This document shows positions 3,545-35,993 of a stretch of DNA of 64,000 bases, piece after piece (the first letter of the stretch is position 1; the number at the start of each line of letters is the position of its first letter). The DNA is from Panorpa germanica. Its lineage: Eukaryota > Arthropoda > Insecta > Mecoptera > Panorpidae. The notes below the pieces were generated by a model, which saw only the letters and a list, made by a program, of their open reading frames with translations, was not told where the DNA came from and searched no databases. The DNA lies in NCBI GenBank assembly GCA_963678705.1, contig OY783219.1:6572001-6636000 (forward strand), written 5' to 3'. Both the position numbers and the translations under genes were made by a program.

Positions 3545-5422
3545 TTAACAAATCTTTCTGTTGGCTACTGCTTCCATGGTGATAAAATGTTTCTTATCCA
3601 ATAATAATCCTTGCAAATTATTCCTGAAAAGATCAATAATTAATTCTAAATTTTTTTAAATTTATTTTTGTATTGTTCAAGCTTACCAAGTTTCTTTGCT
3701 AGCCACCGGATAGCAGTCAGGTTTGCCAAATGCATTAAAACCCGTAGTTAATGGAATAGTGAAAGCCCCCATATTTGGGAATACCAACCATTCCCCAATA
3801 TCCAGTTCTGGTAGTATAATATTTTTAGCTACTAAATCCATACTGCTACAAGTTGGTCCCCAAATTTTCGAAGGATATAACTCAGAAGATTTTTCCTACA
3901 ATGAAATTGAAAATATTAAATTAATTTGTTAGTTAGGCCACACTTTCTACCACAACGAATTATTGCGTGTGGAATTAATAATTGTTGATAAATAAAATAT
4001 TACCTTTAAACGGAGAGGATTAATTTTTGAATTCTCAAAATAAATAACGCGTAGAAAAGACATAAAAATTCCATTATTCATATAATACATGATACTTTCT
4101 ATACTTTTGTTGGAGGAGAAAATCTAAAATAAATATGTTTGCCTATAGAAATCTTTCTTTTAATATAACACTGAATATAATTGTCAATTTAACGTACTTC
4201 TCTTTTTGAAATAATATTACAAGCCAGGGAATAAGCAGATGCAACATAATACCTCCCAAGCTCGGCAATGACTTCAATATTTGGGTCAGGAAAATATTCG
4301 TTTAAAGCAGCATTCACAGTATCTGCTATCTAAAAATATTAAAGCAATACCAAAACATTAAATAGAAGCTTGGACCATATTCGATGAATAATAATATGTC
4401 GATGTATACTTCATCAACAGATGTGTTTTTATTTCCTGGGAAACCTCCTCCGATGTCCAGAACATGTAAATTATGACCTGTGGAATTAGCATAATTAAAC
4501 ACATCTCGACATGCAGCAATAGCACGGTAATAAGCAGAAGGTTCCCCGCAGTCAGACCCAACATGAAAACTTACACCAATTACCTGTAAATATACAAAAA
4601 TAGTTGATTTTTTCTTACAATATCATTCTAACTTATATACATACTTCAAGATGTAATTTTTTTGCAGTGTCTAACAGTCTTGGCGCATCATTTAGAGCGT
4701 CGCAACCAAATTTATCTCCGAATGAAATTGCAGACACAGAAGAATCATAACGAATTCTTAAAATTAATCTGTAAATGCATATTTTAGATTTGAATCCATG
4801 CCTGAATAGTAGGCAACAAAATATACATATTATATGATTCCTACTTTGATTTGGGATAAATTTCTTTAATCTTTAACAATTCGGAATCGTCATCAAAGGT
4901 CATGACCTGGATGTCGTTCTGGTTAGCGTATTCAAGGTGTGATCTCGCCTTCACTGGATTACCATCAATTATCCTATCTGAATGGACTCCAATTTCAAGA
5001 ACCTATAAGTATCATTTTTTAGTATTGTATTTAGTAGAAAGTATTTAAAAATACATTAAATTTACTTTTTGAATTTCATTTTTAGAGACAGTAATGAATC
5101 CAACTTCCAGAGCTGCCAAAGTTTTCAATACTTCTGAACTATCGTTACAATTAATAGCTGCAACAATATTTAAATAAATAATTTTCTGAAGTGAATTTCA
5201 TGACAAATTTGATTGGCCATTTGGGATTGGATATGTACCATAAAAGGGTTTCACTCGTGGAAATTTCTTCAACCAATTGCTGTGTTTCTTCACTATGTCT
5301 CCTAAGTCACATACGAAGAACGATTCTTGGCTACCACCTTCTGCAGTAAGTGCCTTGATGGCACTCCAATCATCCTGGCCTTTCTCCACAATGTGAACCA
5401 CATCACTCTGCATTACGTTCAT
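3545..5422 (-). CDS. ODC-A: ornithine decarboxylase-like pseudoenzyme
   Basis: Nine exons: 5239-5422, 5066-5157, 4845-5002, 4645-4768, 4410-4583, 4198-4329, 4004-4123, 3687-3895, 3545-3623. All are in phase with GT-AG borders and give about 423 residues without a stop. The fold is clearly ODC ([21 protein letters not shown]). Catalytic positions are changed: the PLP lysine motif AVKCN reads AINCN (K69N), FDCAS reads FITVS (D88 lost), GPTCD reads GPTCS (C360 kept, D361S), MGAY reads MGAF (Y389F), EPGR reads ELGR, and NDGVY reads NNGIF. ODC makes putrescine from ornithine in the cytosol; this copy should not. Vertebrate antizyme inhibitors are a known case of inactive ODC relatives, so a regulatory role is possible. 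A 5' UTR intron is suggested by an AG acceptor just before the ATG and a GTAAGT donor near 5500. Confidence 0.85.
4800..4814 (-). promoter_or_regulatory. conserved hairpin motif in ODC-A intron 3
   Basis: On the sense (-) strand the intron contains GTTGCCTACTATTCAGGC, with a GCCT/AGGC stem. The same motif stands in intron 3 of all six ODC copies (about 10325, 13835, 17735, 23059 and 27160). A related form (GTTGCCTA ... AGGCG) occurs in intron 7 of ODC-B, -D, -E and -F, with a weaker version in -C. Function unknown; it could be a splicing or RNA-structure element. Confidence 0.5.
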
Positions 5423-5810: not shown

Positions 5811-6655
5811 CCTAGTAAACATTTTGGAGTAAATTCTACTTAATTTCTATTACATATCATGAATTTTTTGTCTGGAACGTGCTCGTTTTCTATTCAGTCG
5901 TTCATAGGAAAGGCCCTTTTTTTATGAGTTACAGAGATGGCAACGACGGTTCACTGCTGAATTAAAAGCGGAGTCGGTTTATGATTTATGACCGGAGTTA
6001 TAAACTTGAAACTAGCAGGGGTATAAAACTTAATGGAATTCTACTTTTTAGAGTCTGCAAAATATAAATATTTAAATGAAGAAATAAATAGATGTAATCT
6101 ATAGTACGGATCGTGATTTTTTTAATGAATATTATTCATCTTCAACAATACGCGTTATATTAGTTTTTTACATTGTTTTGGTGATTCAAAAATCCACGAT
6201 CGGCAGGACTGCGTTAAGTTTAAAACCCCTGTCTTACCATCGCTAGATGCTAACTTCGTTTATATACATTATATTCGGGGATTGAGGGAGATAGCGTCTG
6301 TCTATTACCATTAAAGAAATATTTGTTGAAAAAGGACAGCATATACTTTAAACATCTGTATTGAATGAAATATTATACAAGTGCAACGGTGAAAAATATA
6401 TTTCACTTGTCTAACGCATCTCGTTTCTCTCTCACTTTGGAATAAATGAGATGAAAGTGAACTTAAAAAAAATATATCCATGTGCGAAAGAAACAGAAAT
6501 ACTTAATGAATGATGTTGGAAAAAGAAAGAATACTAGAAAGAATAACTAACACAAAATCTGTGACAGGTAAGAACTTGTAAAGCGTTAGAATACAATTGT
6601 ACGAGTGACTCGAACTTCACCAAATAGGGCACTTCACCAAATTGTTTACTGGGTT
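5811..6655. mobile_element. non-autonomous TIR element, CCCAGTAAAC family (long form)
   Basis: An approximately 845-bp unit also present in opposite orientation at 37290-38143, with long stretches almost identical. The ends are inverted repeats: CCTAGTAAACATTTTGG on the left (one base changed from the consensus) and CCAAATTGTTTACTGGG on the right. No coding frame of any length is present. The copy at 37290 is flanked by TA on both sides, which suggests Tc1/mariner-type integration. Between 6656 and 7080 there is only AT-rich DNA, with short repeats of an AATTAAAAC-containing segment. Confidence 0.75.
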
Positions 6656-7119
6656 ACTTCAAAAAGAAGTATGGGCTATTAGTTAGATAGTGCCAAGATG
6701 ATAGTTATGTTTATAAATATTCTACATAAATTTACATATTGTAGAATAGTGTGTAATCTATTTAATAAAATATGTATTTGGTTTAAAATAATTAAAACCT
6801 GTTATGTTTCCATTCGTTAGGTAGTATCAAGATAAAATTTGGGTTACTAAATATTATAATGTATATGTAATTGTATGTTTACCTATTTTATCTAAGAGAA
6901 TATCGAGTAATTACTACACAAACTATTAATTAAAATAATTAACACATTTAATTGTTTTAACATAATTAAAACAAGTTATATTTTCATCCAGCATGAAGCT
7001 GATGCATAAATTGGGTTACATTTTTATGTTATCAATCAAAAAAACTATAAATTGAATCTAAAAACTGTATTTTTATATATATATATTTACTTATCTCCCA
7101 CTTACTTATTATCCACTTA

Positions 7120-7900
7120 CTTGACTTTCTTTCGTCATAGCCACCATCATACATTTTTTATACATCTTTTATAATTTATAATGCAATTTAAAAATTTCTG
7201 AATATTTCAATAATTCACTAATTAATTTTGAATCACTTAACAAAAATTTAGTTTTAATCACATCTAATATTTCACTATTGAATTTTGATCTTTCTAAACA
7301 ATAATTTATGCATTCAAATATAATATGATCCAAAGTTCCTTCTTCACCACATTGACATCTATCGTCAGATTTAATATTAATTTTGTACATGTGAGCTGGA
7401 GTTTTACAATGGTTACTTTTAATTCTGATTATAGTTGATATAATTTTGCGGGACTCATTTCGAAACCATCTTTTCTTTCTTAAATTTGGATGTAACATAT
7501 AATAATCTCTTCCTTATAACTGACTTTTGTTAATGAAATCTTGGTTACTCAAATTGAAGTTTAATTTTTTGATTATATTAAAAATTTCATATGAAGGTAA
7601 TTGATTCCTTTGCCAATTTATCCGCAATTTCGTTTCCTCTTATTCCACAATGTTCCGGTATCCACATAAATTCTATGGTATTATTTTTATTTATTATATT
7701 AAAATACAGCTCCTTAATTTTGCATGTCAAAATATCATTATTTGATTTGTGATCATTGGAATTTAAATTTTTTAAAACACTTAAAGAATTCGTTATTATT
7801 ATAATTTTATTATTGTTCATATTTTCATTAATTTCTTTATAGATACAAGAATTACATTTTCATTTATTACAAATTTCTAACAAACATATATTTCGATTTT
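7120..7900 (-). mobile_element. LINE fragment: RNase H domain and 3' end
   Basis: On the - strand, 7820-7587 encodes an RNase H-like piece with the signature WIPEHCGIRGNEIADKLAK. After a short gap, 7498-7169 encodes a C-terminal segment with a C-x-C...H...C-type motif (RCQCGEEGTLDHIIFEC). Both are typical of the 3' end of jockey/R1-like non-LTR retrotransposons. No reverse transcriptase domain remains, so the element is 5' truncated, as is usual for LINEs. The 3' end near 7080-7130 runs into a short repeat of CTTACTTA-like units, the likely tail. The fragment lies just downstream of the ODC-B stop codon. Confidence 0.8.
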
Positions 7901-7968
7901 TACATAGATTTATTATATTGATTATATTTAATAAACTTTTTGAATCTGTTGGTCCATTTTCTTACAAA

Positions 7969-10900
7969 CTAATTCTTGTGTGAACAATTATCCTCTGCTT
8001 CAATAGCGATAAAATGTTTTTTATCCAGTAATAAGCCTTGCAAATAATTCCTGAAAATATCATTTATTAAATAAGATTTTGTTATATATTTAAATATCAT
8101 TTTAACATACCAAGTTTCCTCACTGGCCACCACATGGATAGATGGCTTAGGAAAACCATTAAATCCGTTATATAAACCAGTTGTATAAGCGCCCATATTT
8201 GGGAAAATTATCCAATCACCAATGTCCATTTCTGGTAACATAACATTACCAAGCACTTTATCTGAACTGTCACAAGTTGGGCCCCAAATAGTAGATGGGT
8301 ACAATTGAGAAGAACGTTTCTGAATTAGAAATTTATTTATTATACAACATTGCTATATCTATCCTGCAAATATATTATTCAGCATATAAAACTAAATAAG
8401 TTTAAATATAATTGTTGCGCCTCGCTGAATTTGATAGGCAACATTTATAACTTATAATTCTTTAACCTTCTAGAATTAATAGATATAAGATATTACCTTT
8501 AAAGGAATGGCATTTACTTTTAAATTATGGATACAACCGCTTAAAAATGATGCATAAACTCCATCATTGATATAATACATCATTGTTTCCAATTGAATTG
8601 AAGAAGTTCTCTAAAAATAAAGTACGTTTACATGAATTGTGTTTTAATATGCACAGAATTAATTTGACCAACCTTTTGTTTTGAATGAACATTGCAAGCT
8701 AGGGTATAAGCAGACTCGACGTAATATCTTCCTGGTTCGGCCATGATGTCAATATTTGAATCAGGAAAATATTTTTCGAGAGCATTATTAATAATCACTG
8801 CTACCTGCAACGTGTAATATAAAATTAGAGATTCGAATAGTTACAAATAAATTAAATAGGCTAGTGTCCTATGTCTTAATTTCTATAAAAGTGTACTATA
8901 TATTGATAAAGTGGCTTACTAGAACCTCAAATGTTTTCCCCCTTATATTTCAGGAGATATTAACAATTAAAAAAGTCATTTTGTCTCTTTAATTATTAAA
9001 GGGATTCAACGTTGTACACATTCCAAATGCATGTGACATCACAACTGCTGCCAACCTTACAGCTCATAAATCTCTGCTATATGTATTTATATATCAAAAT
9101 ATCAAATATTATTTACAACTATTTCAAGGAACAATAAAATTTCGATATTATGTCTGCCGTAACAGGGTTAAATTAAATAAAAACATATTATTCTTTGACT
9201 TAACTTGATTATTTCGACTACCAACAGCTGCAAAACATTAAAACAGCACTGACCTACTCAACAAATAACTGATGTTAAAATTCATTTCACGTCATACAAA
9301 TATGGCCGACCATTTCTAGCGCATTGTGGTAATGTTTTGTAGCTGTTGGTACTCAAACAATCCAGTCAAGTCAAAGAATAATAAGTTTTTACTTTATTTA
9401 ACCCTGTTAAGGCAGACATAATATTGAAATTTTATTGTTCCTTGAAATAACTGTAAATAATATTTGATATTTTGATATATAAATACATATAGCAGAGATT
9501 TATGATCTGTAAGGTTGGTAACCTTACACAAGGATTGTGATGTCACATGCATTTGGAGTTTGTACAACGTTAAATCCCTTTAATAATTAACGAGACAAAA
9601 TGACTTTTTTAATTGTTAATATCTCCTAACATATAAGGAGTTATTAAAAAATAATTGAACATTTGAGGTTCTAGTAACCCACTTTATCAATATGTAGTAC
9701 ACTTTTATAGAAATTAAGACATAGGACACAAGCCCATTCAAACTTTTAATTGCTATATCTCCGTCAACATTTAGATATTTAATAAAATAGACACGCCAAT
9801 ACACATTTATTAACTAAAATTTTTATTAAATTGAAGACCACTTAAAAATGAAGACACAAGCCAATTAATATACCTCATCAATAGAAGTTTCTGTTTTTCC
9901 AGGAAAGCCTCCTCCGATATTTAAAACACGTAGATGATGCCCTGTGGAATTACCATAATCAAAAACATCTTTAGATGCAGAAATTGACCGATAATAAGCA
10001 GTGGGTTCGAAGAAATTTGCCCCAACATGAAAACTGACACCAATTACCTACAAATATATAAATTTCTCTTAAAATATTTTTACACTTTTCTTAAAGTTTG
10101 AATAGTTATTTTAGGTAGTAAACTTACTTCAAGACCCAATGTCTTAGCTGTGTCTAATAATTTTGGTGCTTCATTCATAACATCGCATCCAAAGGTGTCT
10201 TCATGCGGAACTGCATACGAATCATAATCACACCGAATTCTTAGAAGTAATCTGCAAATTATAATAAATAGATAAATTTCTTGAAACGCCTGGTATAAAT
10301 TACAAGCTAGGTAGATAAATACCCGCCTGAATTATAGGCAACTAAACAATCAAATATGCTTCTTACTTCGATTCAGGAAAAATGTTCTTAATCTTCAGCA
10401 ACTCGTATTCGCTGTCAAATGTCATAATCTTAACGTCGTACTTCTTAGCGTATTTAATATGCGATGCTGCTTTTACTGTATTCACGTATATTATATTATT
10501 TGAATGAACACCAATATCTAGAACCTATAATTATTATGAAATTAAACAGAGACATATTTTAAACATAAGATTAAGTTACCTTTTGAATTTCGATTGAAGA
10601 AACGCAATTGAATCCAGCTCCTAGAGCCGCTAGGGTCCTTAAGACTTCTTTGCCATCGTTGCATTTGACAACTAAAATAATAACATTTAATACAGATAGT
10701 AAACAAAGTAAATAAATTTTCTTTACGGTAGAAAAACCATTTGGATTTTGAACCGTTATAAAAATGAAAAGTGTCATACGCAAACGTAGTGCTCAAGCTT
10801 ATTTTTACAGTCATTTATTTTAGTATACTTTAATAGATTTTTAATTCTTTGTGTTTATCTTGACTGTTACTATATTTACCATAATGAGGTTTTACGCGCG

Positions 10901-11063
10901 GTAATTTCTTTAACCATGTCATATGTTTTTTCACAATGTCTCCTAAATCGCATACGAAGAACTGCTCTTCGCGACCATCCTCTCCTGCTAATCTCTTAAT
11001 AAAGTTTCTAACATCGTTTCCTTTTTCCAGGATTTGAACCACACTACTCTGTACGTTATTCAT
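7969..11063 (-). CDS. Odc: ODC-B: ornithine decarboxylase paralogue
   Basis: Nine exons in the same phases as ODC-A, first Met at 11063, stop at 7969, about 422 residues. An in-frame extension to 11108 is probably intron, because an AG acceptor lies directly before the Met. Catalytic features kept: VVKCN (K69), FHVG (H197), GGGFPG, AEPGR (R277), GPTCDS (C360, D361) and NMGAY (Y389). Changed: FDCAS to FNCVS (D88N), HVGS to HVGA (S200A), and YANPVK to YVNTVK. The YD at 331-332 is replaced by IH. It lacks the long C-terminal degron of vertebrate ODC. Activity is plausible but the phosphate and substrate pockets are altered. Intron 5 is swollen to about 1.07 kb by a composite MITE. Exons 7-9 and the 3' flank closely match ODC-E. 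Confidence 0.85.
8857..9864. mobile_element. composite palindromic MITE in ODC-B intron 5 (GGGCTTGTGTCCT family)
   Basis: A copy of the family starts at about 8857 and runs to about 9321 (ending ACCATTTCTAGCGC). It is then interrupted by a partial copy in opposite orientation, about 9322-9735, which ends in the full terminal repeat ACACAAGCCCATT. The first copy resumes at about 9736 and closes with ACACAAGCCA at 9864. The two arms of roughly 410 bp are inverted and could fold on each other. The element lies wholly within the intron. Confidence 0.7.
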
Positions 11064-11822: not shown

Positions 11823-12409
11823 CGAGGCATGTTTTTTAAGTAAGTACCGTTTTGCGTTTCCGCCTTTGCAGCGCTACGGTCGGCGTTACCTGCATGCGCG
11901 CTGGTTACCTACATCTCTTGTCTACGCTCTGACGCTATTACAGTCTGATTCTTCATTGTATACGTTGTTTACTGCGTGTTTAAGATGCCTCCGACAATCG
12001 TGAGTCCCGCCGATTGTGAAGTACGGGCTGTTATACGATTTCTTAGTGCTAAAGGCGTAAAACCGATCGATATTCATCGTGAGATCTGTGAAGTTTACGT
12101 ACAAAACATTATGAGTGATGGAATGGTAAGGAAATGGGTGAGAGCAGTAAGGGTATCGTTTTGCTGCATGACAATGCCCGTCCACATGTGGCGAATCGGA
12201 TACAGTGGTTAACAAGTCAGGCGGCAGAATTTTATGAGGAGGGTATTCAAAAACTTGTGCCACGTTATGACAAGTGCCTCAATATTCACGGAAATTATGT
12301 AGAAAAGTAGATTAAGGTACAGGCTTTCATGTAAAAATAAAATTATTGCGATATCTTTGGACGCCTTTTTTTAATTCCAAAACGGTACTTACTTAAAAAA
12401 CACGCCTCG
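11823..12409 (+). mobile_element. mariner deletion derivative A
   Basis: A 587-bp element with about 30-bp inverted repeats (CGAGGCATGTTTTTTAAGTA at the left, its near-complement at the right) flanked by TA on both sides. A frame starting MPPTIV at 11985 gives the N-terminal helix-turn-helix of a mariner transposase ([20 protein letters not shown] ... MVRKWVRA). It is then fused out of frame to the C-terminal part, which contains the HDNARPH catalytic motif and ends NIHGNYVEK. About half of the usual transposase of about 345 residues, including the central catalytic region, is missing, so it is non-autonomous. It stands between ODC-B and ODC-C. Confidence 0.9.
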
Positions 12410-12666
12410 TATAATAAATAAAATGCTGACTGGAGAAAATTGTATTCAGTGTGTACACATAACATATTCATTTCAGATAATTAATAATAGATACACACTG
12501 TTAAATAAATAAAAACATGAATATTTTTTCATAAAATGACTAATTGTTTTATTATTTCTTTATTCCCATAAAATCAACGACAATTGTAAAACCTTGGCCG
12601 GAGTGATAAAAGTATAGTTTATTGTTTATCATTACAAATTAAACAACAACTTATTTTTAGAGGTCT

Positions 12667-15113
12667 TTAATTTCTTTTATTCAGCAGAAAACCTAATCCT
12701 TGCAAATAGTTCCTGAAAGAATCGTTAATAAGTTTTCAATATTTTTTGAATGTATACTTTGTATGGCTTGAGCTTACCAAGTTTCCTCACTGGCCACTAT
12801 AACGGTGCTGGGTTTCGCATAACCGTTGAAGTTGCTAACCAAACTAATTGTATAAGATCCCATGTTTGGAAAAACTAACCATTCACCAGTAGCAAGTTCT
12901 GGTAGCATAATGTTATCAGCTACTTTATCAAAAGTATCACAAGTTTGACCCCAAAGTGTAGATGGATATAACTCACAAGAATGCTTCTGGAATAAGAAAT
13001 GGAAACAAAAACTTATAACGCCTTTAAAATAGGCAAAACGTATACCACATTAAATGTAAAAATAATTACCTTTAATGGAATAGGTTTGAATTTCAAATTA
13101 GAAAAACATGCAACAAATATAAAAGATGAATAAATTCCATCATTAATATAATACACAAATTTTTCTAACTTTGTAGAGGAAGTTATCTAAAAATTAATAA
13201 TTAATAACAAAAATAGTTTTTCATGAAAAATAAGAAAGTATTTTCAGTTTTACAAACTTTTTTCTTCGAGTGAACATTGCAAGCCAGGGTAAATGCAGAT
13301 TCAACGTAATACCTTCCAGGCTCGGCTATGACTTCAATATTTGGGTCAGGGAAATATTCTTTTAAAGCAGCATTCACAGTGCCTGCTATCTGTGAAAATA
13401 ATGAAAATGCTAAAAATATATTTATAGTCTGGGTTTGAATCCAAAATATTCACTAACAAAATTGCAAATAGATACCTCATCGATAGGCTTGTCTTTATAT
13501 CCTGGAAAACCTCCTCCTATATCCAAAACATGTAACTGATGCCCTGTAGAATTTCCATAATTAAACACGTGTCTAGAGGCAGCTATAGCACGATAAAAAG
13601 CAGAGGGTTCGTTGCAATCCGAACCAACATGAAAACTGACACCAACTACCTGAAAATATCAATAGAAAAGTTCAATTTAACGCGGTTTAAACTTTAAATA
13701 AGTACATACTTCAAGATCCATTGCTTTAGCTTTGTCTAAAAGTCTTGGCGCTTCCGTTAAAGCATCGCATCCAAATTTATCTCCAATAGCGAATTCTTAG
13801 AACTAATCTGTAAATGTATGTTAGTAAACACAACGCCTGAATAGTACGCAACAAAATATACACAAATGAATTATGTATGAAGTAATTGATTCTCACTTTG
13901 CTTGAGGAAATATTTTCTTAATATTTTGCAGTTCATATTCGTTATCAAATCTGCACCTTGTTCTTCTTCGCATACTCAAGATGCGATGACGCCTTCACTG
14001 TATTCGCAAATATTATTCTGTTTGGATGTACCCCCATTTCAAGCACCTAAAGTTGTTCGTCCTCATTTACATATACAGAAATATTTAAGAGAGTATCTGA
14101 AATTTATTTAATTACCATTTGAATTTCAGTTGCAGTTGCGCAATCAAAACCAGTTCCTAGGGTTGCTAAAGTCTTCAGCACCTCGGGACTATTGTTGCAT
14201 TTAACAGCTAAAGAAATATATTAATTAATAAACTAATGGGCTTGTGTCCTCATTTTTAAGTGGTCGATTTTTTAATTGTTGATTGAAATTGATGTTAATA
14301 AATGTGTATTGACGTGTCTATTTTATTAAATATCTAAATGTTGACGGAGATATAGCAATTAAAAGTTTGAATTGTAGTTTTAGCGCTAGAGATGGTCGGC
14401 CATATTTTTATGACGTGAATGCATTTTAACGTCAGTTATTTGTTGAGTAGGTCAGTGCTGTGGTAATGTTTTGTAGCTGTTGGTAGTCAAATAATCAAGT
14501 CAAAACAAAGAATAATACGTTTTTATTTTATTTAACCCTGTTACGGCAGACATAATATTGAAATTATATTGTTCCTTGAAATAGCTGTAAATAATATTTG
14601 ATATTTTGACATATAAATACACATAGCAGAGATTTATGAGCTGTAAGGTTGGTAACCTTACACAAGGGTTGTGATGTCACATGCATTTGGAATGTGTACA
14701 ACGTTGAATCCCTTTAATAATTAAAGAGACAAAATGACTTTTTTAAATGTTCATATCTCTTAATATATAAGGAGTTATTAAAAAATAATTGAACATTTGA
14801 GGTTCTAGTAACTCACTTTTATAGAAATTAAGACATAGGACACAAGCCCATTAATAAAAAATGTAGAAATTCTATTGTGTCGCCATCTCTTAATAGCTGT
14901 GGCTAACCATCGATTTCTTAAACAAATACAATATTTACCATAATGAGGTTTAACTCGCGGTAATTTCTTTAACCAATTGTGATGCTTCTTTACAATATCT
15001 CCTAAATCGCACACATAGAACGCATCTTCGCGGCCATCCTCTGCAGTTAATGCTCTGATGACGCTCCACTCGTCTTGCTCTTTCTCCAGGATGTGAACGG
15101 TCTCGTTCTTCAT
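12667..15113 (-). pseudogene. ODC-C: frameshifted ornithine decarboxylase copy
   Basis: All nine exons can be found (Met at 15113, last in-frame stop at 12667), but two deletions break the frame. Exon 3 lacks 8 bases near 13949, where GGTCATGACC of ODC-D is reduced to TC; this removes part of the segment matching the antizyme-binding region. Exon 4 lacks 26 bases near 13786, removing about nine residues after LRIRY. Their sum (34) is not a multiple of three. The last exon is also degraded and stops early. Outside these sites the frame is well kept: AVKCN, FHVGS, GGGFPG, EPGR, GQTCD, MGSY. The closest relative is ODC-D (both have GQTC). The loss looks recent. Confidence 0.85.
14235..14852. mobile_element. 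MITE in ODC-C intron 1 (AATGGGCTTGTGTCCT family)
   Basis: A 618-bp unit bounded by inverted repeats AATGGGCTTGTGTCCT and its complement. It fills nearly all of intron 1 and stops about 27 bp from the start of exon 2. Orientation is reverse with respect to the copy at 20043. No transposase-like frame. Flanking TA could be a target duplication in this copy, but other copies do not confirm it. Confidence 0.85.
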
Positions 15114-16479
15114 CACCTGCAAAATATTAAAGTAATGTTTTAAGATTTTACTTTTGTGTGATATGTACTAATTGCGTTATCAGGAGGCGGGCAGAGTTGA
15201 AAGATGGAAAAGAAGAAGAGAACAACTTGAACGAGTTGGTGTTATCACATTTCAATAAGAAACTGCTTAAAAATCTTGTCAAAAGGAGAAATTTGTTTAT
15301 TATAATTTAAATATAAGCGTGAGATAATAATTTCCACAACATATTGATTTATGACCGTAACGTAGCAGTATACCATCTGACAATTCTGACAGCTGTCAAC
15401 CACTGTGAAGTGAAATTAGCAAACAATAAATATTCCATCGATCATCGACTCGGTCGAAAACTTTGACTGTGGTAAACTCTACTAAACTCGCTTTAGAGAA
15501 AACTGATGTAGTACTTATGTAAAATCATTATAACAGGACTTACAGAATAATATTTGACACGAGCTAATGGATTTTATATAAAACAATTAAAAATTTTGTC
15601 GATTTTATGATAAAGAAGCAATCAGATATATTTACGAACCGGTTAATGACTTTCTACAAAAAAGAACATGGACTGATATACAGTTTGGTAACGGCAAGAT
15701 TACCATCGCATTAATTATATACTTTAATTATGTTTACATACGATATTATAATATTTAATAACGTAAATATTATAATATATGTAAACATTATTACGGGTAT
15801 GTATCTAGAGCGACTAATTACTCTTCAAACTATTAATTAAAATAATTAAAACATGTCATATGACATAAATGTTTCCATCCTGCGTGAAACTGTTAGAACC
15901 ATTGGGTTTTGAACTGAGTTTTGAAGGTTAGATTTTTAATTGGGTTTAATTAATGTATATAGATCATTTTTATTTAATAAATATCCAAAAATTGACGGAT
16001 ATGTATCTATTTAAAGTTTGAATCCTAGTAGTTGAAGTATTTTTATTTATTTTTTACTTATATGAAAACTTGATGGGTTGCTGCAACAGTTGCTATTGCT
16101 TTGACGTTTAATACTGCATCTCTTTTACACTTCGCTTGTTTTACAGTAATGACAAAGATAACCAAATAAAAATAATTGGTTATTTGAGGTTGTGATAGCC
16201 AATTTTATCAATATACAGTGCAGTTTTATGTAAATTCAGTTATAGTACACGACCCAATTAACATACTTTTCACGTTATGAATGAAAAAAACTATAAATTG
16301 TCTCTAAGAAGTGTATTTTATTTATAAAATATAGTTTTGTGTTACAGTTTTATGCATACAAGAAATAAATTATTGTTGCCCCATAAGTAAAGTTAAATAT
16401 TTCTAGATAAATAAATAAATATTTCTAATAAATAATTAGATCTTGTGGTTCGATTTCTATACATAGCTTTAATAATTAA
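15114..16479. other. spacer between ODC-C and ODC-D
   Basis: Contains the 5' flank of ODC-C (similar to that of ODC-A around 15340-15670) and AT-rich DNA. A segment around 15830-15890 (AATTAAAACATGTCATATG ...) recalls 6780-7010 upstream of ODC-A. No gene, RNA or complete repeat seen. Confidence 0.4.
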
Positions 16480-18947
16480 TTAATTCTTCTGTGACAGATC
16501 CTTCGCTTCAACGGCGACAAAATGTTTTTTATCTAGTAATAAATCTCGCAAATAATCCCTGGAAAGATAATTTATTAAATAGAGTTTTTTTTTATATTTG
16601 AATATTTTTCAAACTTACCAAGTTTCCTCACTGGCCACTATAACGGTGCTCGGTTTGACATAACCGTTGAAGTTGCAAAACAAAGTAACTGTATAAGCTC
16701 CCATGTTTGAAAAACCTAACCAATCACCAGTAGCAAGTTCTGGTAGCATAATATTATCAGCTACTTTATCAAAACTATCACAAGTTTGACCCCAAAGTGT
16801 AGATGGATATAATTCACAAGAATGCTTCTGGAATAAGAAATACAAACAATAACGCCTTTGGGATAGGCAACACGTATACCTCCTATAATTGAATGTAAAA
16901 ATAATGAACATTACCTTTAATGGAATAGGTTTTAATTTCCAATTCGCAAAACATCTAAAGGTTAAAAAAGATGAATAAATTCCATCGTTAATATAATAGA
17001 TAAATTTTTCTAACCTTGTAGAGGAGTTTATCTAAAAATTAATAATTAATAACAATAATAGTTTTGCATGTAATATATGAAAGTATTTTCAGTTTTACAA
17101 ACTTTTTTCTTCATGTGAACATTACAAGCTATGATATATGCAGTTGTAGGATAATACATTCCAGGTTCGGCTATGATTTTAATATTTGGCTCAGGAAAAT
17201 ATTCCTTTAAACCAGCATTGACAGTACCTGCTATCTGAGAAAATATATAGAATGCTAAAAATATATTTATAGTCTGGGTTTGAATCTAAAATATTTGATA
17301 ATCGAATCTTATCAAATATTCTAACCACTTTAAGGAAATGGAAACATGTAGATACCTCATCGAAAGTATTGTCTTTATCTCCTGGAAAACCTCCTCCTAT
17401 ATCCAAAAGATGTAACTGATGTCCTGTGGATTTTCCATAATCAAACACGTGTCTAGAGGCAGCTATAGCACGATAAAAAGCAGAGGTTTCCTTGCAATCT
17501 GAACCAACATGAAAACTGACACCAACTACCTGAAAATACCATTATAGAAATTCATGTAGTTTAAACTTTAAATAAGTACTTACTTTAAGATCCATTGCTT
17601 TAGCCTTGTCTAAAAGTCTTGGCGCTTCCGTGAAAGCATCGCATCCAAATTTTTCTCCAAAAGATAGCAGCGCTTCAGCAGCATCATAGCGAATTCTTAG
17701 AACTAATCTGTAATAGCATGTTGGTAAACACAACGCCTGAATAGTATGCAATGAATTACACATATTCTTACTTTGCTTGAGGAAAAATTTTCTTAATATT
17801 TTGCAGCTCGTATTCGTTATCAAAGGTCATGACCTGCACGTCGTTCTTCTTAGCATACTCAAGATGTGATGACACCTTCACTGGATTCGCGTATATTATT
17901 CTGGTAGGATGGACCCCCATTTCAAGGACCTGTAGAGATTAGAGATAAATATATATTCAAGAAAATATCTGAAATTTCTGAAATTACCAGTTGAATTTCC
18001 GTTTTAGAGGCGCAATCAAAACCAGTTCCTAGGGCTGCTAAAGTTTTCACAACTTCCGGACTATCGTTGCATTTAACAGCTAAGGAAATGATATATTAAG
18101 ACACTTTTCTTTAAATGAGAGAAAGTAATGTAATTTATTTTGTAAGTTACGAGGCATGTTTTTTAAGTAAGTACTGTTTTGGAATTAAAAAAAGACGTGC
18201 AAAGATATCGCAATAATTTTATTTTTACATGAAAGCCTGTACCTTAATCTACTTTTCTACAGCCATTACAGTCTGATTCTTCATTGTATACGTTGTTTAC
18301 TGAGTGTTTAAGATGCCTCCGACAATCGTGTGTCCCCGCCGATTGTGAAGTACGGGCTGTTATACGATTTCTTAGTGCTAAAGGCGTAAAACCGATCGAT
18401 ATTCATCGTGAGATCTGTGAAGTTTACGGACAAAACATTATGAGTGATGGAATGGTAAGGAAATGGGTGAGAGCATTTAAAGATGGCCGCACAAATGTGC
18501 ATGATGAAAAAAGTCAAAACAGTTGTGATACAGTGGTTAACAAGTCAGGCGGCAGAATTTTATGAGGAGGGTATTCAAAAACTGGTGCCACGTTATGACA
18601 AGTGCCTCAATATTCATGGAAATTATGTAGAAAAGTAGATTAAGGTACAGGCTTTCATGTAAAAATAAAATTATTGCGATATCTATGCACGTCTTTTTTT
18701 AATTCCAAAACGGTACTTACTTAAAAAACACGCCTCGTATTTTGTTTTCTTGACAAAATCAATATTTACCATAGTGTGGCATAACACGCGGTAATTTCTT
18801 CAACCAATTCTTGTGTTTCTTAACTAAATCTCCCAAATTGCATACGTAGAAAGCATCATCGCGGTCATCCTCTGCAGTTAAAGCTGTGATGAAACTCCAC
18901 TCGTCCTGCCCTTTCTTCAGGATGTGAACAACCTCACTTTCCATCAT
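16480..18947 (-). CDS. Odc: ODC-D: ornithine decarboxylase paralogue with altered PLP-phosphate site
   Basis: Nine open exons, first Met at 18947 (a second Met follows at once), stop at 16480, about 420 residues. Kept: AVKCN (K69), FDCAS (D88), FHVGS (H197, S200), [12 protein letters not shown] (C360, D361) and NMGAY (Y389). Changed: the EPGR motif reads EPGM, so the arginine that holds the PLP phosphate (R277) is Met; the following YYVAS reads YYPTT; GPTC reads GQTC; and the YDH at 331-333 is lost. In the well-studied enzymes R277 is important for cofactor binding, so activity is doubtful though not excluded. Intron 1 contains a mariner derivative, intron 3 the conserved hairpin motif. Closest to ODC-C. 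Confidence 0.85.
18150..18737 (+). mobile_element. mariner deletion derivative B with foldback 5' end, in ODC-D intron 1
   Basis: A 588-bp element with TA on both sides and the same termini as the copy at 11823. The transposase N-terminus ([20 protein letters not shown] ... [23 protein letters not shown]) joins the C-terminal tail ([16 protein letters not shown] ... NYVEK) after an internal deletion. Unlike copy A, its first roughly 110 bp are the reverse complement of its own 3' end, so the terminal inverted repeats are over 100 bp long. Non-autonomous. Confidence 0.85.
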
Positions 18948-20042: not shown

Positions 20043-20666
20043 AATGGGCTTGTGTCCTATGTCTTAATTTCTATAAAAGTGTACTATATATTGATAAAGT
20101 AGGTTACTAGAACCTCAAATGTTCAATTATTTTTTAATAACTCCTTATATGTTAAGAGATATTAACAATTAAAAAAGTCATTTTGTCTCTTTAATTATTA
20201 AAGGGATTCAACGTTGTACACATTCCAAATGCATATGACATCACAATCGCTGCCAACCTTACAGCTCATAAATCTCTGCTATATGTATTTGTACATCAAA
20301 ATATCAAATACTATTTACAGCTATTTCAAGGAACAATCAAATTTCAATATTATGTCTGCCGTAACACGGTTAAATAAAATAAAAACTTATTATTCTTTGA
20401 CTTGCCTTGATTATTTCGACTACCAACAGCTACAAAACATTACCACAGCACTGACCTACTCAACAAATAACTGACGTTAAAATGCATATCACGTAATACA
20501 AATATGGCCGACCATTTCTAGCGCTAAAACTACAATTCAAATTTTTAATTGCTATATCTCTGTCAACATTTAGATATTTAATAAAATAGACACGCCAATA
20601 CACATTTATTAACATCAATTTCAATCAACTATTGAAAAACGACCTCTAAAAAATGAGAACACAAGC
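20043..20666. mobile_element. MITE between ODC-D and ODC-E (AATGGGCTTGTGTCCT family)
   Basis: A near full-length unit of about 620 bp, forward orientation. It begins AATGGGCTTGTGTCCTATG and ends GAGAACACAAGC; the right terminal repeat is slightly worn. Internal landmarks are GACAAAATGACTTTTTT (inverted) and GCCGACCATTTCTAGCGC. No meaningful ORF. Confidence 0.85.
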
Positions 20667-20788
20667 ATATTGGGTTAAATTTTTATGTTATGATTTAATT
20701 TTAGGGTTTGATTCTTTAACATAATAGTTTAATTGATTATATTTAATAAATAACATTTTTTTAATCTGTTGGTCCTTTTTTTTATGAA

Positions 20789-23722
20789 CTAATTCTTGTG
20801 TGAACGATCCTCTGCTTCAATGGCGACAAAATGTTTTGTATCCAGTAATAAATCTTGCAAATAATTCCTGAAAATATCAGTTATTAAATAGAAGTGTTTC
20901 TATATTTGAATATCATTTAAACATACCAAGTTTCCTTACTGGCTACCACATGGATAGATGGTTTAGGAAAACCATTAAATCCGCTATAGAAAGCAAATGT
21001 ATAAGCCCCCATATTCGGGAATATTATCCAATCACCAATGTCCATTTCCGGTAGCATAACATTCTCAAATACTTTGTCCGAACTGTCACAAGTTGGGCCC
21101 CAAATAGTAGATGGGTACAATTGAGAAGAACGTTTCTGAATTAGAAATTTATTTATTATATAAAATTACTATCACTTATCCTGTAAATACTATTATTCAG
21201 CCTATTAAACTAAATAAGTTTAAATATAACTATTGCGCCTCGCTGAATTTGATAGGCAACATTTATAACTTACAATTCTTTAAGCTTCTAGGTTTAATAA
21301 TTCCATGTAATAGATATAACGTAATACCTTTAAAGGAATAGGATTTAATTTTAAATTATGAATAAAAACGCTCAGAAATGATATATAAATTCCATCATTG
21401 ATATAATACATCATTGTTTCCAATTTACTTGCGGACGTTTTCTAAAAATAAATATTTATTTAGATAAATAGTGTTTCAATAAGAAATAGAAATTATTGTC
21501 AATTTTACAAACCTTTTTCTTCGAGTAAACATTACAAGCTAGAGTATATGCAGATGCGACATAATACCTTCCAGGCTCGGCTATAACTTCAATATTTGGG
21601 TCAGGAAAATATTCGTTTAAAGCAGCATTCACAGTATCTGCTATCTAAGAAAATCAATAGAATACCAAAAATATATTTAAAGTTACACAGGTTTAAAACC
21701 AATATATATATCATTTATAAAAACCTCATCGATAGAAGTGCCTTTATTTCCTGGAAAGCCTCCTCCTATGTTCAGAACATGTAGCTTATGTCCAGTGGAA
21801 TTTCCATAATTAAACACGTGTCTACAGGCAGCAATAGCACGATAAAAAGCAGAGGGTTCGTTGCAATCCGAACCAACATGAAAACTGACACCAATCACCT
21901 GTAAAATATATTGTTTTAGTGTGTGTAAAGTTTGTGTTTTAAGAGTCCTGGCTGCTTCTCTAGGCTCTAAAGTAAAGGTAAGGTTAAATATGGGTTAACA
22001 ATGTTCGTCTTCATCTTGAAAAATTAAACTTTTGGATGTTTTGTTTTATTTAACACATTTACTCTTTCACTTTTTATTTAACACATTTATACTTTCAGTT
22101 GTTAATAAGAATTGACAAATAGTAAAAAACGCGGAAAAAAACAGAATATTGTTATAAAATTCATAACTTTATAACAAACAAATATTAAGAAAAACGATTG
22201 TAGACTATTTTATCTTAGGTTATAAGCTTTCGAAAGAATGTAGTGTCTTTGGCGTGGGCTCCAAAAAGTTGAATTATTTGTGCACCTGAAAGTGGGGAAT
22301 ATTTTACGAATTCAGTCATACGCATTAACTAATAAAAAAAATCTATATATACAATCTAAGAAATAATATATTAAATTACATAAAACATTTATTTTAACAA
22401 TGATAAAACTGTAAAACAACGAGAAAAGCAGAAAAAAATTAATTTACTAACATTGGAAAATACTAACGTCGTTTGTACATTGACCCTTTTAGGCAAGTTT
22501 CACTGGCTCGCCTTGCCGGTAAACTGCCAGATCCGTACGCAGTTGGAACCTTAAGTATCATGATTTAAGTATCATGACACTTAGATTTTTTAGCGGGATC
22601 ATGAGAAAGAAATAGGAGTTTGAAATTTCAACTGTTCTTTAAAAGACCCAGTGTACACACGCATGGTTAATTTGATTCTTTGATCAGTTAAAAATTAAAT
22701 GTGAATATTTGTAAGAAGATGTAAGGTCGCCGAGACATATACAATAAATATATTCAAATCAATTCAATTAAAAAATAAATATAAGTTTTAAAGTTAGATT
22801 GTTGGATTAATAGATTTAAGTATAGATTGAGTCATAATAAATATTCGTTTGATGAAGTTTCAAATCAATATATACCTACTTACTTCAAGATCCATTGATT
22901 TAGCTGTGTCCAATATTTCCGGCGCTTCAAAAAAAGCATCACATCCAAATTTATCTCCAAGTGCAACTGCAGATGCAGCAGCATCATAACGAATTCTTAA
23001 AATTAATCTGTAATTGTATGTTGGTTAACATGAAAAGCAAGCAAGAAATATCTTCAGCACCTGAATGATAGGCAACAAGATATACAAACAAGAAAACAAT
23101 TTTATGTATTACCTACTTTGCTTGAGGAAAAAAATTCCTAATATTTTGCAGTTCGTATTCATTATCAAAGGTCATAACTTGAACGTCATTCTTCTTGGCG
23201 TACTTAAGATGCGATGGCACCTTCACTGGATTCGCGTATATTATTCTGTTTGGATGAACTCCCATTTGAAGCACCTATAGTTTTTATTCCTCACTTTAGG
23301 ATATATAAACATTTAGGAGAGTATGTGACATTTAATAAGTTACCAGTTGAATTTCCGTTTTGGAGGCGCAATCGAAACCAGCCCCTAGTGCTGCTAAAGT
23401 TCTTAAGACTTCGGGATTATAGTTGGATTTAACAGCTAAAGAAATGATTTTTATTATATTTTATATTTAATATAAATTTCTACTGTGTCGCCATCTCTTA
23501 ACAGTGGTGACTACAAGGGTGTTTTTGGTAAATACAATATTTACCATAATGAGGTTTAACTCGCGGTAATTTCTTCAACCAATTGTTATGTTTCTTTACA
23601 ATATCTCCTAAATCGCATACATAGAACGCATCTTCGCGGTCATCCTCTGCAGTTAATGCTCTGATGATGCCCCACTCGTCTTGCCCTTTCTCAAGGATGT
23701 GAACGACCTCGCTGTTCATCAT
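20789..23722 (-). CDS. Odc: ODC-E: ornithine decarboxylase paralogue (mosaic)
   Basis: Nine open exons, first Met at 23722, stop at 20789, about 419 residues. Kept: K69, D88, FHVGS, GGGFPG, AEPGR (R277), GPTCDS (C360, D361), NMGAY (Y389). Changed: AVKCN to AVKSN (C70S), and YD at 331-332 to IH. Exons 1-5 resemble ODC-C and -D, exon 6 resembles ODC-A. Exons 7-9, intron 7 and the 3' flank (GGACCAACAGATT near 20775) match ODC-B, which points to gene conversion or unequal crossing-over. Intron 4 (21901-22882) is enlarged by about 0.9 kb of unassigned AT-rich DNA. Of the set, E and F look most likely to be enzymes. Confidence 0.85.
21901..22882. other. enlarged intron 4 of ODC-E, unassigned insertion
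   Basis: Corresponding introns in the other copies are around 60-100 bp, so about 0.9 kb has been gained here. It contains short direct repeats (TTATTTAACACATTTA-like at about 22047 and 22077; TTTAAGTATCATGA at about 22549) but no terminal repeats or ORF that identify an element. Confidence 0.4.
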
Positions 23723-24651: not shown

Positions 24652-25290
24652 AATGGGCTTGTGTCCTCATTTTTTAGTGGTCGATTTTTCAATTGTTGAT
24701 TGAAATTGATGTTAATAAATGTGTATTGGCGTGTCTATTTTATTAAATATCTAAATATTGACGGAGATATAGCAATTAAAAGTTTGAATTGTAGTTTTAG
24801 CGCTAGAAATGGTTGGCCATATTTGTATGACATGGAATGCATTTTAACGTCAGTTATTTGTTGAGTAGGTCAGTGTTGTGGTAATGTTTTGTAGCTGTTG
24901 GTACTCAAACAATCCAGTCAAGTCAAAGAATAATAAGTTTTTACTGTTTTTAACCCTGTTAAGGCAGACATAATATTGAAATTTTATTGTTCCTTGAAAT
25001 AACTGTAAATAATATTTGATATTTTGATATATAAATACATAGAGCAGAGATTTATGATCTGTAAGGTTGGTAACCTTACACAAGGTTTGTGATGTCACAT
25101 GCATTTGGAGTTTGTACAACGTTGAATCCCTTTAATAATTAAAGAGACAAAATGACTTTTTTAATTGTTAATATCTCCTAACATATATGGAGTTATTAAA
25201 AAATAATTGAACATTTGAGGTTCTAGTAACCCACTTTATCAATATATAGTACAGTTTTATAGAAATTAAAACATAGGACACAAGCCCATT
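24652..25290. mobile_element. MITE between ODC-E and ODC-F (AATGGGCTTGTGTCCT family)
   Basis: A complete unit of 639 bp with perfect 16-bp terminal inverted repeats (AATGGGCTTGTGTCCT). Reverse orientation relative to 20043. This is the best reference copy in the window. It contains chance ORFs only. Confidence 0.9.
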
Positions 25291-25565
25291 TAGCCAGATA
25301 CTAAATCATATGTCTTTTTAATCATTTATTTAATAGAAATGGAGCTAGTATTTATATATAATACTATATCTTCTATAAGAAAAATACATCTACCGCTACT
25401 GTGGCATTTACTAGCATTTATTATACTCCACCATTCAAGCAGGTGTTACTCTAGAAGTAAACAAATGATGTTAAATAATAAGATGCATATTTTATTTATA
25501 AATTCATAATTGTTTTATTAGTCAATATATACATTTAATGTTATATTGTCAGTGACAGTTCTAAA

Positions 25566-25812: not shown

Positions 25813-28525
25813 TTAATCTTCTAATTTAAATTCTTTTTCATTTATCGATCCATTTAAATAATTATTTTTAATTATTAATTTTTCAAAAGATTCCTTCGGC
25901 TCGATAGGGATGAAATGATTTTTATCCAGAAGTAATCCTTGTAAATAATTCCTGAAAGTATCATAATTTATTACAACTATTTAAAGAAAAAAATATGTAT
26001 GCATTATTCAAATTCAAACTTACCAAGTTTCTTTACTGGCCACTAGATGGATGCTGGGTTTGTCAAACGCGTTGAAACCGGAAGCTAATGGAATAGTGTA
26101 AGCTCCCATATTTTGAAATATCAACCATTCGCCAATATCTAGTTCTGGTAACATAATATTTTCCGTAACTTTATCGGAGCTGTCACAAGTAGGCCCCCAA
26201 ACTGTAGATGGGTATAGTTCTGAAGAATGCTTCTATAATCATAAATAATTTCAAGGTATATAATTATTACGCCTACCTAAACTAGACAGGCAACATTTAT
26301 AACACACAACACTTTTTGCATGCAGGTTATTAACTATATGCGACATTACCTTTAAAGGAATGGGTTGTAATTTCCAATTTTCGAAAAACACACTTACGAA
26401 TGACATGTAGATTCCGTCGTTAATGTAATACATCATTTTTTCTAATTTCGTTGAAGAGGTAACCTAAAAATATATTGCGAATTACTGAAGTTCTTATTTT
26501 AATATAATAATATAAAAGTAATGGTCAATTTTACAAACTTTTCTCTTGGAGTGAACATTACAAGCTAGGGAATATGCAGATGCAACGTAATATCTTCCGG
26601 GCTCAGATATAATGTCAATATTTGGATCAGAAAAATGTTCCTTTAAAGCGGCATTAACACAATTCGCTATCTAAAAAATAGATATAAAAGGTTTAAAGCC
26701 AAACTATTATCATATGCAACCAAAGATTCGAACCAGAAATTTAAACACATGTATACCTCATCTATAGACGTGTCTATATTTCCTGGATAGCCTCCTCCAA
26801 TATCCAAAACTCTTAAATGATGGCCTGTGGTATGACCATAATCAAATACGTCTTTACATGCAGCCATAGCACGAGAATAAGCCAAAGCCTCTTTGCAATC
26901 AGTACCAATATGAAAACTGACACCAATAACCTAGAAATATATAAAGTTAACTTCTCTTACACTGTTCTTCAAGAAGATTTAAAGTTTAAACTTATATTTA
27001 CTTTAAGGTTCAATGTTTTAGCTTTGTCTAACAACCTTGGCGCATCAGTTAAAGCATCGCATCCAAATTTCTCCCCAAATGCAATTGCTGATACAGCAGC
27101 ATCATATCGAATTCTTAGAATTAATCTGTAAGTCAATATTTCGGATTTATAAATAAACCCCTGAATAGTAGGCAACTAAATATACAGTTATATGATTCTC
27201 ACTTTGCTTTGGGAAATATATTCTTAATTTTTAACAACTCGAATTCGTTATCAAAGGTCATAGCCTCTACGTCATTCTTCTTAGCGTACTCAATATGTGA
27301 TGAAGTCTTCGCTGGATTCGCGTAAATTATCCTGTTTGGGTGGACTCCAATTTCAAGAATCTGTAAGAATATCTCATTTAGCAGGTGATATAAAATATTA
27401 AGGAACATTTTTGAATTTACCTTTTTTATTTCATTTGCAGATGCGCAATCAAAGCCAGTTCCAAGAGCTGCTAAAGTTTTTAGTACTTCTGGACTATCAT
27501 TGCATTTAACGGCTAGAACATATTTTTAACATTATCAATGGGCTTGTGTCCTATGTCTTCATTTCTATATAAGTGTACTATATATTGATACAGTTGGTTA
27601 CTAGAACCTCAAATGTTCAATTACTTCTTAATAACTCCTTATATTTTAGGAGACATTAACAATTAAAAAAGTCATTTTGCCTCTTTAATTATTAAAGGTA
27701 TTCAACGTTGTACAACATTCCAAATGCATGTGACATCACAACCGCTAGTTGCTATCTCTTTTATACAACAGAGCGTAAAAGAGATACATTCTTGACAGAA
27801 CTCTGACAAGTTTACAGGTTACCAACCTTACAGTTCATAAATCTCTGCTATATGTATTTATATATCAAAATATCAAATATTATTTACAGCTATTTCAAGG
27901 AACAATAAAATTTTAATATTAAGTCTGTCTTAACAGGGTTAAATAAAATAAAAACTTATTATTCTTTGACTTGACTTGATTATTTCGACTACCAACGACT
28001 ACAAAACATTACCACAGCACTGACCTACTCAACAAATAACTGACGTTAAAATGTATTTCACGTCATACAAATATAGCCGACCATTTTTAGCGCTAAAACT
28101 ACAATTCAAATTTTTAATTACTAAATCTCCATCAACATTTAGATATTTAATAAAATAGACACACCAATACACATTTATTAACATCAATTTCAATCAATAA
28201 TTGAAAAATCGACCACTAAAAAATGAGGACACAAGCCCATTTATATTTTATGGAAATATTTCGTCATAACAAATTATATTAGCTCGCCATCTTTTAATTA
28301 AAAGACTAACCACTACTTTTAATCATAAAAACTATATTTACCATAATGAGGTCTAACTCTTGGTAATTTCTTTAACCAATTCTTATGTTTCTTCACAATA
28401 TCTCCTAAATCGCACACGTAGAACGCATCTTCGCGATCATCTTCTGCAGCTAATGCTCTGATGGTGCTCCACGCGTCCTGTCCCTTTTCCAGGATTCGAA
28501 CCACATCACTTTGTACCAACTTCAT
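25813..28525 (-). CDS. Odc: ODC-F: most conventional ornithine decarboxylase copy
   Basis: Nine open exons, first Met at 28525, stop at 25813, about 441 residues. Kept: AVKCN (K69, C70), FDCAS (D88), EPGR (E274, R277), GPTCDSSD (C360, D361), NMGAY (Y389), RIIYANP. Conservative changes: FHVGS to FHIGT, GGGFPG to GGGYPG, and YD at 331-332 to FE, which aligns without gaps and keeps an acid. The C-terminus is about 20 residues longer than in the other copies and charged, ending KEFKLED; it does not resemble the vertebrate PEST degron. Product: putrescine from ornithine, PLP-dependent, cytosolic homodimer. It is probably the parental gene. Intron 1 contains a MITE. Confidence 0.88.
27537..28241. 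mobile_element. MITE in ODC-F intron 1 (AATGGGCTTGTGTCCT family, longer subfamily)
   Basis: Unit of about 705 bp, forward orientation, filling nearly all of intron 1 and ending about 24 bp from exon 2. It carries about 75 bp not found in the 24652 copy (GCTAGTTGCTATCTCTTTTA ... GACAAGTTTACAGG). The same extra block occurs in the copy at 54703, so there are two subfamilies. Confidence 0.85.
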
Positions 28526-29011: not shown

Positions 29012-29320
29012 TGTTCAGTACAAAATTAGTACAGAACATAAGAAGATGTCTCTGTTGGCATTCCAACATTATAATGTATTGTTGTCTCTAATAGAAGTAA
29101 TGCGCATGACTACAATACGACGACTGCTGTACGCTACAGCGATATGGCATTCGTGTCAGTTGTGTTTTGGGCTTCTACACTGTCAAGATCATAATTCCCA
29201 ACCATCTTGTTATTATAAGAATGTTGGTTCAAAGTAATTAAAAAGTGTAAAATTATTTTATCATTAAACAATTGAATAATTATTCAATCTACAAATACTC
29301 GCATGGTTTTATTTCGTACA
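29012..29320 (+). repeat. LTR1 of BEL-like element
   Basis: 309 bp, TGTTCAGTAC ... TTTCGTACA, matching LTR3 except for single-base changes such as GTCAGTTG against GTGAGTTG. Just inside, TGGTCCTTCGAG at about 29329 is a candidate tRNA primer site. The small open frames in the LTR are not genes. Confidence 0.85.
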
Positions 29321-31672: not shown

Positions 31673-31827
31673 AGTTAAGAAGTTTATGTTATTTTGTGTA
31701 ATTTTGTTTATAATAGTTTTAAGAAGTTCACATTATTTTTTGTAAATTGGTTTATAATAATTTTATGTAACATTGTATAATTTGATATTGGTTGTGAGCT
31801 TATCTACTTCTGCTGGCTGGCAATTTA

Positions 31828-35838: not shown

Positions 35839-35993
35839 AGTTAAGAAGTTTATGTTATTTTGTGTAATTTTGTTTATAATAGTTTTAAGAAGTTCACATT
35901 ATTTTTTGTAAATTGGTTTATAATAATTTTATGTAACATTGTATAATTTGATATTAGTTGTGAGCTTATCTACTTCTGCTGGCTGGCAATTTA

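Follow-up and report, generated by a model that had tools for sequence, protein, structure and literature searches.

The locus described here raises the question of why an ODC-like gene should keep an open reading frame when residues needed for its chemistry are gone, and of what its product might then do. The window, that is, the whole stretch of 64,000 nucleotides that was analysed (C16:6572001-6636000), belongs to a Panorpa germanica assembly of 464 Mb in 249 contigs. It contains six tandem ODC-like genes between positions 3545 and 28525, all on the minus strand, five of which (A, B, D, E and F) are open and one of which (C) is broken:

3545..5422, minus strand: ODC-A gene, nine exons, 423 aa; key catalytic residues gone, reading frame open
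7969..11063, minus strand: ODC-B, nine exons open, 422 aa; D88N, K169T, S200A, D332H
12631..15116, minus strand: ODC-C, pseudogene; deletions of 8 nt (exon 3) and 26 nt (exon 4), changed last exon
16480..18947, minus strand: ODC-D, nine exons open, 420 aa; R277M, D332A
20789..23722, minus strand: ODC-E, nine exons open, 419 aa; D332H, C70S
25813..28525, minus strand: ODC-F, nine exons open, 441 aa; S200T, D332E

Gene structure and residue losses of ODC-A

The joined exons of ODC-A, as obtained by spliced alignment, comprise 423 codons with no stop or frameshift, and all eight introns are of the GT-AG type (61-108 bases), which bears out the claim of the initial annotation that nine open and correctly spliced exons are present, its coordinates being exact. 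Both PF02784 (Orn_Arg_deC_N, 236.8 bits) and PF00278 (the C-terminal sheet domain, 69.1 bits) scored above the Pfam cut-off, and ODC-A is a homologue of ODC, a fold III PLP decarboxylase. The exons and the positions discussed below are as follows:

5422-5239, 5157-5066, 5002-4845, 4768-4645 and 4583-4410, minus strand: ODC-A exons 1-5 (spliced alignment)
4329-4198, 4123-4004, 3895-3687 and 3623-3545 (stop), minus strand: ODC-A exons 6-9 (spliced alignment)
5150..5155, minus strand: ATT AAT, encoding I68-N69 in ODC-A (V68-K69 in the other copies); the PLP Schiff-base lysine is gone
4845..5002, minus strand: ODC-A exon 3, with the antizyme-binding element (human residues 117-140); omega 0.53 on the A branch
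4004..4123, minus strand: ODC-A exon 7, with D320N, Y323F, Y331F and D332E
3687..3895, minus strand: ODC-A exon 8, with C360 retained, D361S and Y389F

Human ODC served as the numbering reference, and the key set comprised the 20 residues held necessary for ODC according to PMC5518511, 18 of which are tabulated in PMC5574924. Five of the 20 differ between ODC-A and human ODC in the alignment, namely K69N, D88I, D332E, D361S and Y389F (the assignment at 331/332 varies with gap placement, as a one-residue insertion lies just before the pair), and the other 15 are retained (E94, R154, K169, G171, H197, S200, G235-237, E274, R277, C360, D364, G387 and F397). Further changes from human ODC include P275L (EPGR to ELGR), D320N, Y323F and C89T. 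The codon at position 69 is AAT in ODC-A and AAA in the other five array copies, while D88I, D361S, Y389F and Y323F are encoded by ATT, AGC, TTC and TTT, respectively. The joint alteration of K69, D88, D361, Y389 and Y323 had been noticed in the initial annotation, and the alignment with human ODC confirmed it at all five positions; P275L, D320N, C89T and D332E, the pseudogene C, the substitutions in B and D, and the absence of Y331 and D332 from all six copies are additions to that account. An active ODC is expected to retain the full set of 20, and K69 in particular, and a canonical ODC found elsewhere in the genome is changed at none of them, whereas ODC-A lacks five, including K69. Judged from these residues, ODC-A is almost certainly catalytically dead, and no Schiff base of the usual kind can form between PLP and its predicted product.

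Changes at key residues are found throughout the array, with five differences from human ODC in A, four in B, two each in D and F, and one each in E and C. Position 332 is E, H, S, A, H and E in A, B, C, D, E and F, so that D332 is found in none of the six, and Y331 is replaced by F or I in every copy (column pairing there hinges on gap placement in A, C and D, which have a one-residue insertion beside 331/332), while the canonical ODC has both residues. This suggests that the substrate side of the pocket has been altered array-wide, and a substrate shift of the whole array is possible. By extension, ODC-A itself might still be catalytic with a changed substrate or mechanism, as in Xenopus AZIN2, which was formerly deemed an inhibitor and is a lysine/ornithine decarboxylase (PMC6738921). 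Such a reading is very improbable for ODC-A, from which the Schiff-base lysine is gone, and it suits copies E and F better. Moreover, human ODC carrying D332E is reported to have a kcat of 177 versus 225 per minute (PMC4139326), so that E332 alone implies little, and ODC-F, and perhaps other copies, may retain activity. With Y331 and D332 missing throughout the array, it is of interest whether the open copies have a substrate and which one; following up leucine decarboxylase as a candidate activity yielded nothing.

The distribution of the changes in ODC-A was compared between key sites and the remainder of the protein. Along the ODC-A branch, changes were not significantly denser at key sites (3/14) than elsewhere (10/108, P = 0.17), nor were they in a second comparison (4/17 vs 9/105, P = 0.08). 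A key-site density test was also non-significant (5/19 vs 44/238, P = 0.37), and extending each key site post hoc by one residue on either side gave 9/47 vs 40/210 (P = 1.0). Relative to the canonical ODC, the key sites of ODC-A were less changed than the rest (5/20 vs 174/351, P = 0.026). The key/rest change ratio of A (0.50) is the highest of nine copies (0.42 in B and 0.11-0.29 in the others) yet still below 1, implying that the special protection of these sites has weakened and leaving a targeting of the losses undemonstrated. Active-site targeting was rejected on the grounds of both the non-significant density and the smaller change at key sites.

Selection and decay on the ODC-A branch

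Selection was assessed by a codon model with branch-specific omega, using paralogues only, with either the whole gene on one tree or exons 1-6 and 7-9 on their own trees. For the whole gene, omega on the ODC-A branch was 0.20 (95% interval approximately 0.14-0.29; likelihood ratio 63 vs omega = 1), with a background of 0.24, and the separate trees gave 0.172 for exons 1-6 and 0.189 for exons 7-9 (likelihood ratio 61 vs 1). With the canonical ODC added, the values were 0.213 and 0.208 on two trees. When the method was checked by simulation, with 12 runs each, the mean estimate was 0.197 for a true value of 0.20 and 1.08 for a true value of 1. The marks of a pseudogene (frame damage, lost introns and neutral omega) were all absent from ODC-A, which has its eight introns, an open frame and a low omega.

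A low branch omega is by itself no proof of present function, since the broken copy C also shows one (0.26 over exons 1-6; the estimate for exons 7-9, 20 on a branch of 0.007, is unusable). In C, the low value is explained by a branch that mostly predates the damage, and the low omega of ODC-A likewise partly represents time before the loss. It is conceivable that ODC-A lost catalysis recently and is now in neutral decay, its frame being open for want of time and most of the selection on its branch preceding the loss, as in C. In line with this, omega is indistinguishable from 1 in exons 3, 7 and 9 (2dl 0.99, 1.75 and 0.47), that of exon 3 being indistinguishable from the background as well (2dl 2.65), the neighbouring C is a pseudogene, and other array copies carry damaging changes. 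In exons 1, 2, 4, 5, 6 and 8, omega is below 1 (2dl 5.3-26.9).

Several results argue against recent decay. When the last 10% of the ODC-A branch was simulated as neutral, omega ranged from 0.28 to 0.48, and none of the 12 runs reached the observed value of 0.20 or less. In a further simulation, an active copy like F evolved strictly neutrally for one of twelve durations (0.01 to 1.0 of the branch), and 19 key residues were scored, D332 being omitted as the change is common to A and F. An open frame combined with at least four of 19 key losses appeared in at most 0.37% of simulations (0.0037) at any of the twelve durations, and in at most 0.05% (0.0005) when frameshifts were counted at a rate taken from the introns of C vs D (8 gap events per 106 mismatches in 469 bases). 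In addition, D88I and D361S would each have required two base substitutions, starting from the codons of the sister copies. Under these models, simple late neutral decay fits poorly, and a recent loss followed by decay is quite unlikely.

The comparison with C points in the same direction. ODC-C displays the pattern of decay, with a broken frame and 19 of 20 key residues matching human ODC, and ODC-A displays the reverse. This reversal, together with the simulations, suggests that ODC-A most likely lost its chemistry while under selection, and on this modelling it has probably been kept by selection since then, as a pseudoenzyme. The kept non-enzymatic role proposed at the outset was thereby upheld as far as the loss of chemistry, the open frame and an omega of 0.20-0.21 are concerned, and was not upheld in its choice of antizyme binding as that role, as discussed below.

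Gene conversion was also considered as the cause of the open frame of ODC-A and was rejected, because A is on average the farthest copy (dS 0.87-1.10 to the other five) and because its omega was 0.22 after leaving out C and exon 6, the A exon nearest to E (86%). Signs of gene conversion in the array occur above all in B and E, with little in A. Exons 7-9 of B and E (3' parts, 7891-8773 and 20707-21613) have 85-91% identity, versus 71-79% in exons 1-6, and this similarity may reflect gene conversion or recombination within the array.

Antizyme face, dimer face and candidate roles

The other members of the family in this genome were sought by a whole-genome PF02784 profile search conducted exon by exon, in which 29 candidates yielded 24 matches, a number to be read as a minimum. 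Outside the window, it yielded one ODC gene and a cluster. The former, at approximately C16:6116084-6118642 and about 0.46 Mb from ODC-A, has none of the 20 key residues changed in its spliced model and is likely to be a working (canonical) ODC. The latter forms another array, with three ODC-like genes at C7:14801957-14822842 (approximately 14.802-14.823 Mb), all of which carry C360L, E332 and V331; S200G is present in two of the three, and the last exons of these copies were not cleanly modelled. A separate genome search for antizyme, with four candidates, gave one match (C21:17997431-17997688). In a protein tree, the six copies of the window formed one clade with 100% support, apart from mouse AZIN1, and ODC-A adjoined ODC-F with 69% support, which makes F its probable nearest relative. 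ODC-A therefore appears to have lost its chemistry within its own lineage. The presumed independence from vertebrate antizyme inhibitors was corroborated both by this clade and by the different set of losses in AZIN1 (3btn).

If ODC-A acted as had first been suggested, it would bind antizyme in the manner of vertebrate AZIN1/2 and so release active ODC. The antizyme encoded in the genome has conserved ODC-facing residues (K153, E164, E165, R188, F192 and L193, counted along the 5bwa alignment, outside which residues 216 and 219 fall), while ODC-A retains D134, P113, F170 and N398 and has E332 in common with AZIN1. ODC-A is changed from the canonical ODC at seven of 12 antizyme-facing sites, the highest number among eight copies, although just two of the seven changes are non-conservative (BLOSUM62), a number that F and the C7 copies match or exceed. 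On the other hand, the net charge of the element 117-140 is -5 in A, -4 in F, -3 in D and 0 in both the canonical ODC and AZIN1, placing A at the extreme of a trend. The high affinity of AZIN1 has been attributed to K125 and K140 (PMC3084279), where ODC-A has Q125 and L140. According to the contact map in PMC4595762, N144E of ODC-A sits opposite antizyme E165, and D361S drops a contact to antizyme residue 178, which is R in the antizyme of this insect. Moreover, the element shows 6/18 changes from the array near-consensus in A, the most of five copies (P = 0.12 vs the rest of the protein), and only one of the monomer-making residues of AZIN1 (S277, S331, E332 and D389) is common to ODC-A, which has R, F, E and F. 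H119 was dropped as a further argument against binding, since the canonical ODC of this genome has H119 too. Taken as a whole, the antizyme face of ODC-A looks poorer than that of the canonical ODC, and the initial proposal of antizyme binding as the kept role lost ground. Because the yardsticks come from vertebrates, four contact residues (D134, P113, F170 and N398) are retained and the changes are mostly conservative, antizyme binding by ODC-A is disfavoured and nothing stronger, and a role in releasing ODC from antizyme is unlikely.

The dimer face of ODC-A appears better preserved. Four of ten dimer-face residues differ from the canonical ODC (V322I, Y331F, D332E and Y389F), and none of these changes is non-conservative (BLOSUM62) in A, nor is any in F, versus one to three in the other six copies. 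Y389 serves the PLP of its own subunit. The ODC site is built by two subunits, with the PLP half coming from one and C360 and D361 from the other, and antizyme occupies the place of one ODC subunit (PMC4595762). ODC-A would be expected to fold as an ODC monomer that retains most of the cofactor cup and the dimer face, and it could pair with active ODC as a regulatory dimer partner. Both of its half-sites are damaged, the PLP side having lost K69, D88 and Y389 and the other side D361, so that a mixed dimer with active ODC would have no complete site, and through such dimers ODC-A would reduce decarboxylase activity or titrate it.

It is also conceivable that ODC-A has a function unrelated to polyamine synthesis, for example the binding of PLP or another ligand without chemistry. 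Most of the PLP cup is intact in ODC-A (R154, H197, S200, G235-237, E274 and R277), and silencing of planarian ODC5/ODC6, which are without C360 and K69, is described as giving a phenotype that putrescine did not rescue (PMC5574924). However, P275L, D88I and Y389F change the cup, any ligand binding is putative, and a role of this kind is rather doubtful. The combination of a conservative dimer face and a poor antizyme face would favour a dimer partner that inhibits or titrates, ahead of another non-enzymatic role and, in third place, an antizyme inhibitor, these likelihoods overlapping in that the latter two also include the pseudoenzyme part. A dead paralogue kept by selection and acting as a regulatory dimer partner is given an even chance, slightly lower than before the key sites were compared with the canonical ODC, and the dimer-partner mechanism taken strictly, which is drawn from the sequence at ten residues, a somewhat smaller one.

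More speculatively, duplicates of ODC may have built up a regulatory layer in this genome, comprising the complete ODC, two altered arrays and the lysine-less A, in which mixed dimers would act without antizyme. ODC-A might then control either the active enzyme or the remaining copies; of the altered copies, six are without Y331 and D332 and three without C360 too. Both suggestions are tentative.

Related systems and other elements of the window

Inactive ODC homologues are reported to have arisen repeatedly beside a complete ODC, often by lineage-specific duplication, and both antizyme-inhibitor and inhibitory-heterodimer roles were proposed for them (Ivanov, Firth and Atkins 2010; PMC5574924, PMC5518511). 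ODC-A shows the same features, with several losses among the 18-20 key residues, an open frame, lineage-specific duplication and a complete ODC elsewhere in the genome, and it differs from the homologues described there in its setting, an insect tandem array containing a pseudogene. Planarian ODC6 (DjODC6, Smed-odc-6), as tabulated in PMC5574924, resembles A in having lost both K69 and D88 (each to S) while its siblings are milder; in contrast to A, it is changed at R154, G171, H197, S200, G236, E274 and R277 and retains D361 and Y389. With these precedents, ODC-A adds a member to an already described kind, and a regulatory function without enzymatic activity, of a sort known from other animals, is probable for its protein.

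AZIN1 is likewise an inactive ODC fold with five of 20 key residues changed, and it resembles ODC-A in E332 and in the changes at D88 and Y389. Unlike ODC-A, it has K69 and D361 in the 3btn alignment (mouse), lacks R154 and R277, and carries K125, K140, the monomer-making S277, S331 and D389; identity to A is 37%, and its origin is separate. AZINs are described in PMC6738921 as lacking K69 and C360, which the 3btn alignment does not show. The trypanosome prozyme and the dead deoxyhypusine synthase paralogue offer a parallel to the role proposed for A, in that a dead polyamine-pathway paralogue is reported to regulate its active sister by mixed assembly; both activate, whereas inhibition would be the expected effect of A, in which the two half-sites are damaged.

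The literature search identified no published dead ODC in an insect array, though Ivanov 2010 may contain some, and a search of viral contigs confirmed no relatives of ODC-A. A bacteria-induced termite 'antizyme inhibitor 2' was set aside as an insect precedent, since in PMC8954430 it is an annotation name without residue data. Dead ODC copies have been catalogued across many eukaryotes. The present setting adds value by combining two altered arrays, one contrast pseudogene and one complete enzyme in a single genome; the dead but kept A, the broken C, the milder E and F, the complete ODC and antizyme together offer a test bed for distinguishing a decoy from a dimer partner.

Besides the ODC-like genes, the window contains a number of other elements. 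Exons of a dsRNA-binding protein with two dsrm domains adjoin the array on the plus strand (1657-2734), and a 0.85-kb inverted repeat pair with 95% identity occurs at 5814-6659 and 37285-38139, one copy lying just upstream of A. A palindromic (inverted-repeat) element of about 0.9 kb recurs at seven or more sites, some of them within introns of B, C and F, with one copy at 8852-9741 and the others near 14234-14855, 20043-20666, 24652-25292, 27537-28246, 50362-50886 and 54705-55187. Two mariner-like fragments are 91% alike, one at 11928-12412 between B and C, with a Mos1-type HTH domain, and one at 18256-18740 in intron 1 of D. Two 2.8-kb copies (29312-32131 and 33478-36297) that encode a BEL/Pao-type protein (DUF1759, Peptidase_A17) are 99.9% identical and have a third, partial copy between them, which points either to duplication in the very recent past or to a repeat made by the assembly. 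A domain search revealed a zf-AD domain, a type that marks arthropods, encoded at 40960-41232, and an unbroken frame of 1327 codons at 44629-48612 resembles, by eye, a Copia-type polyprotein.
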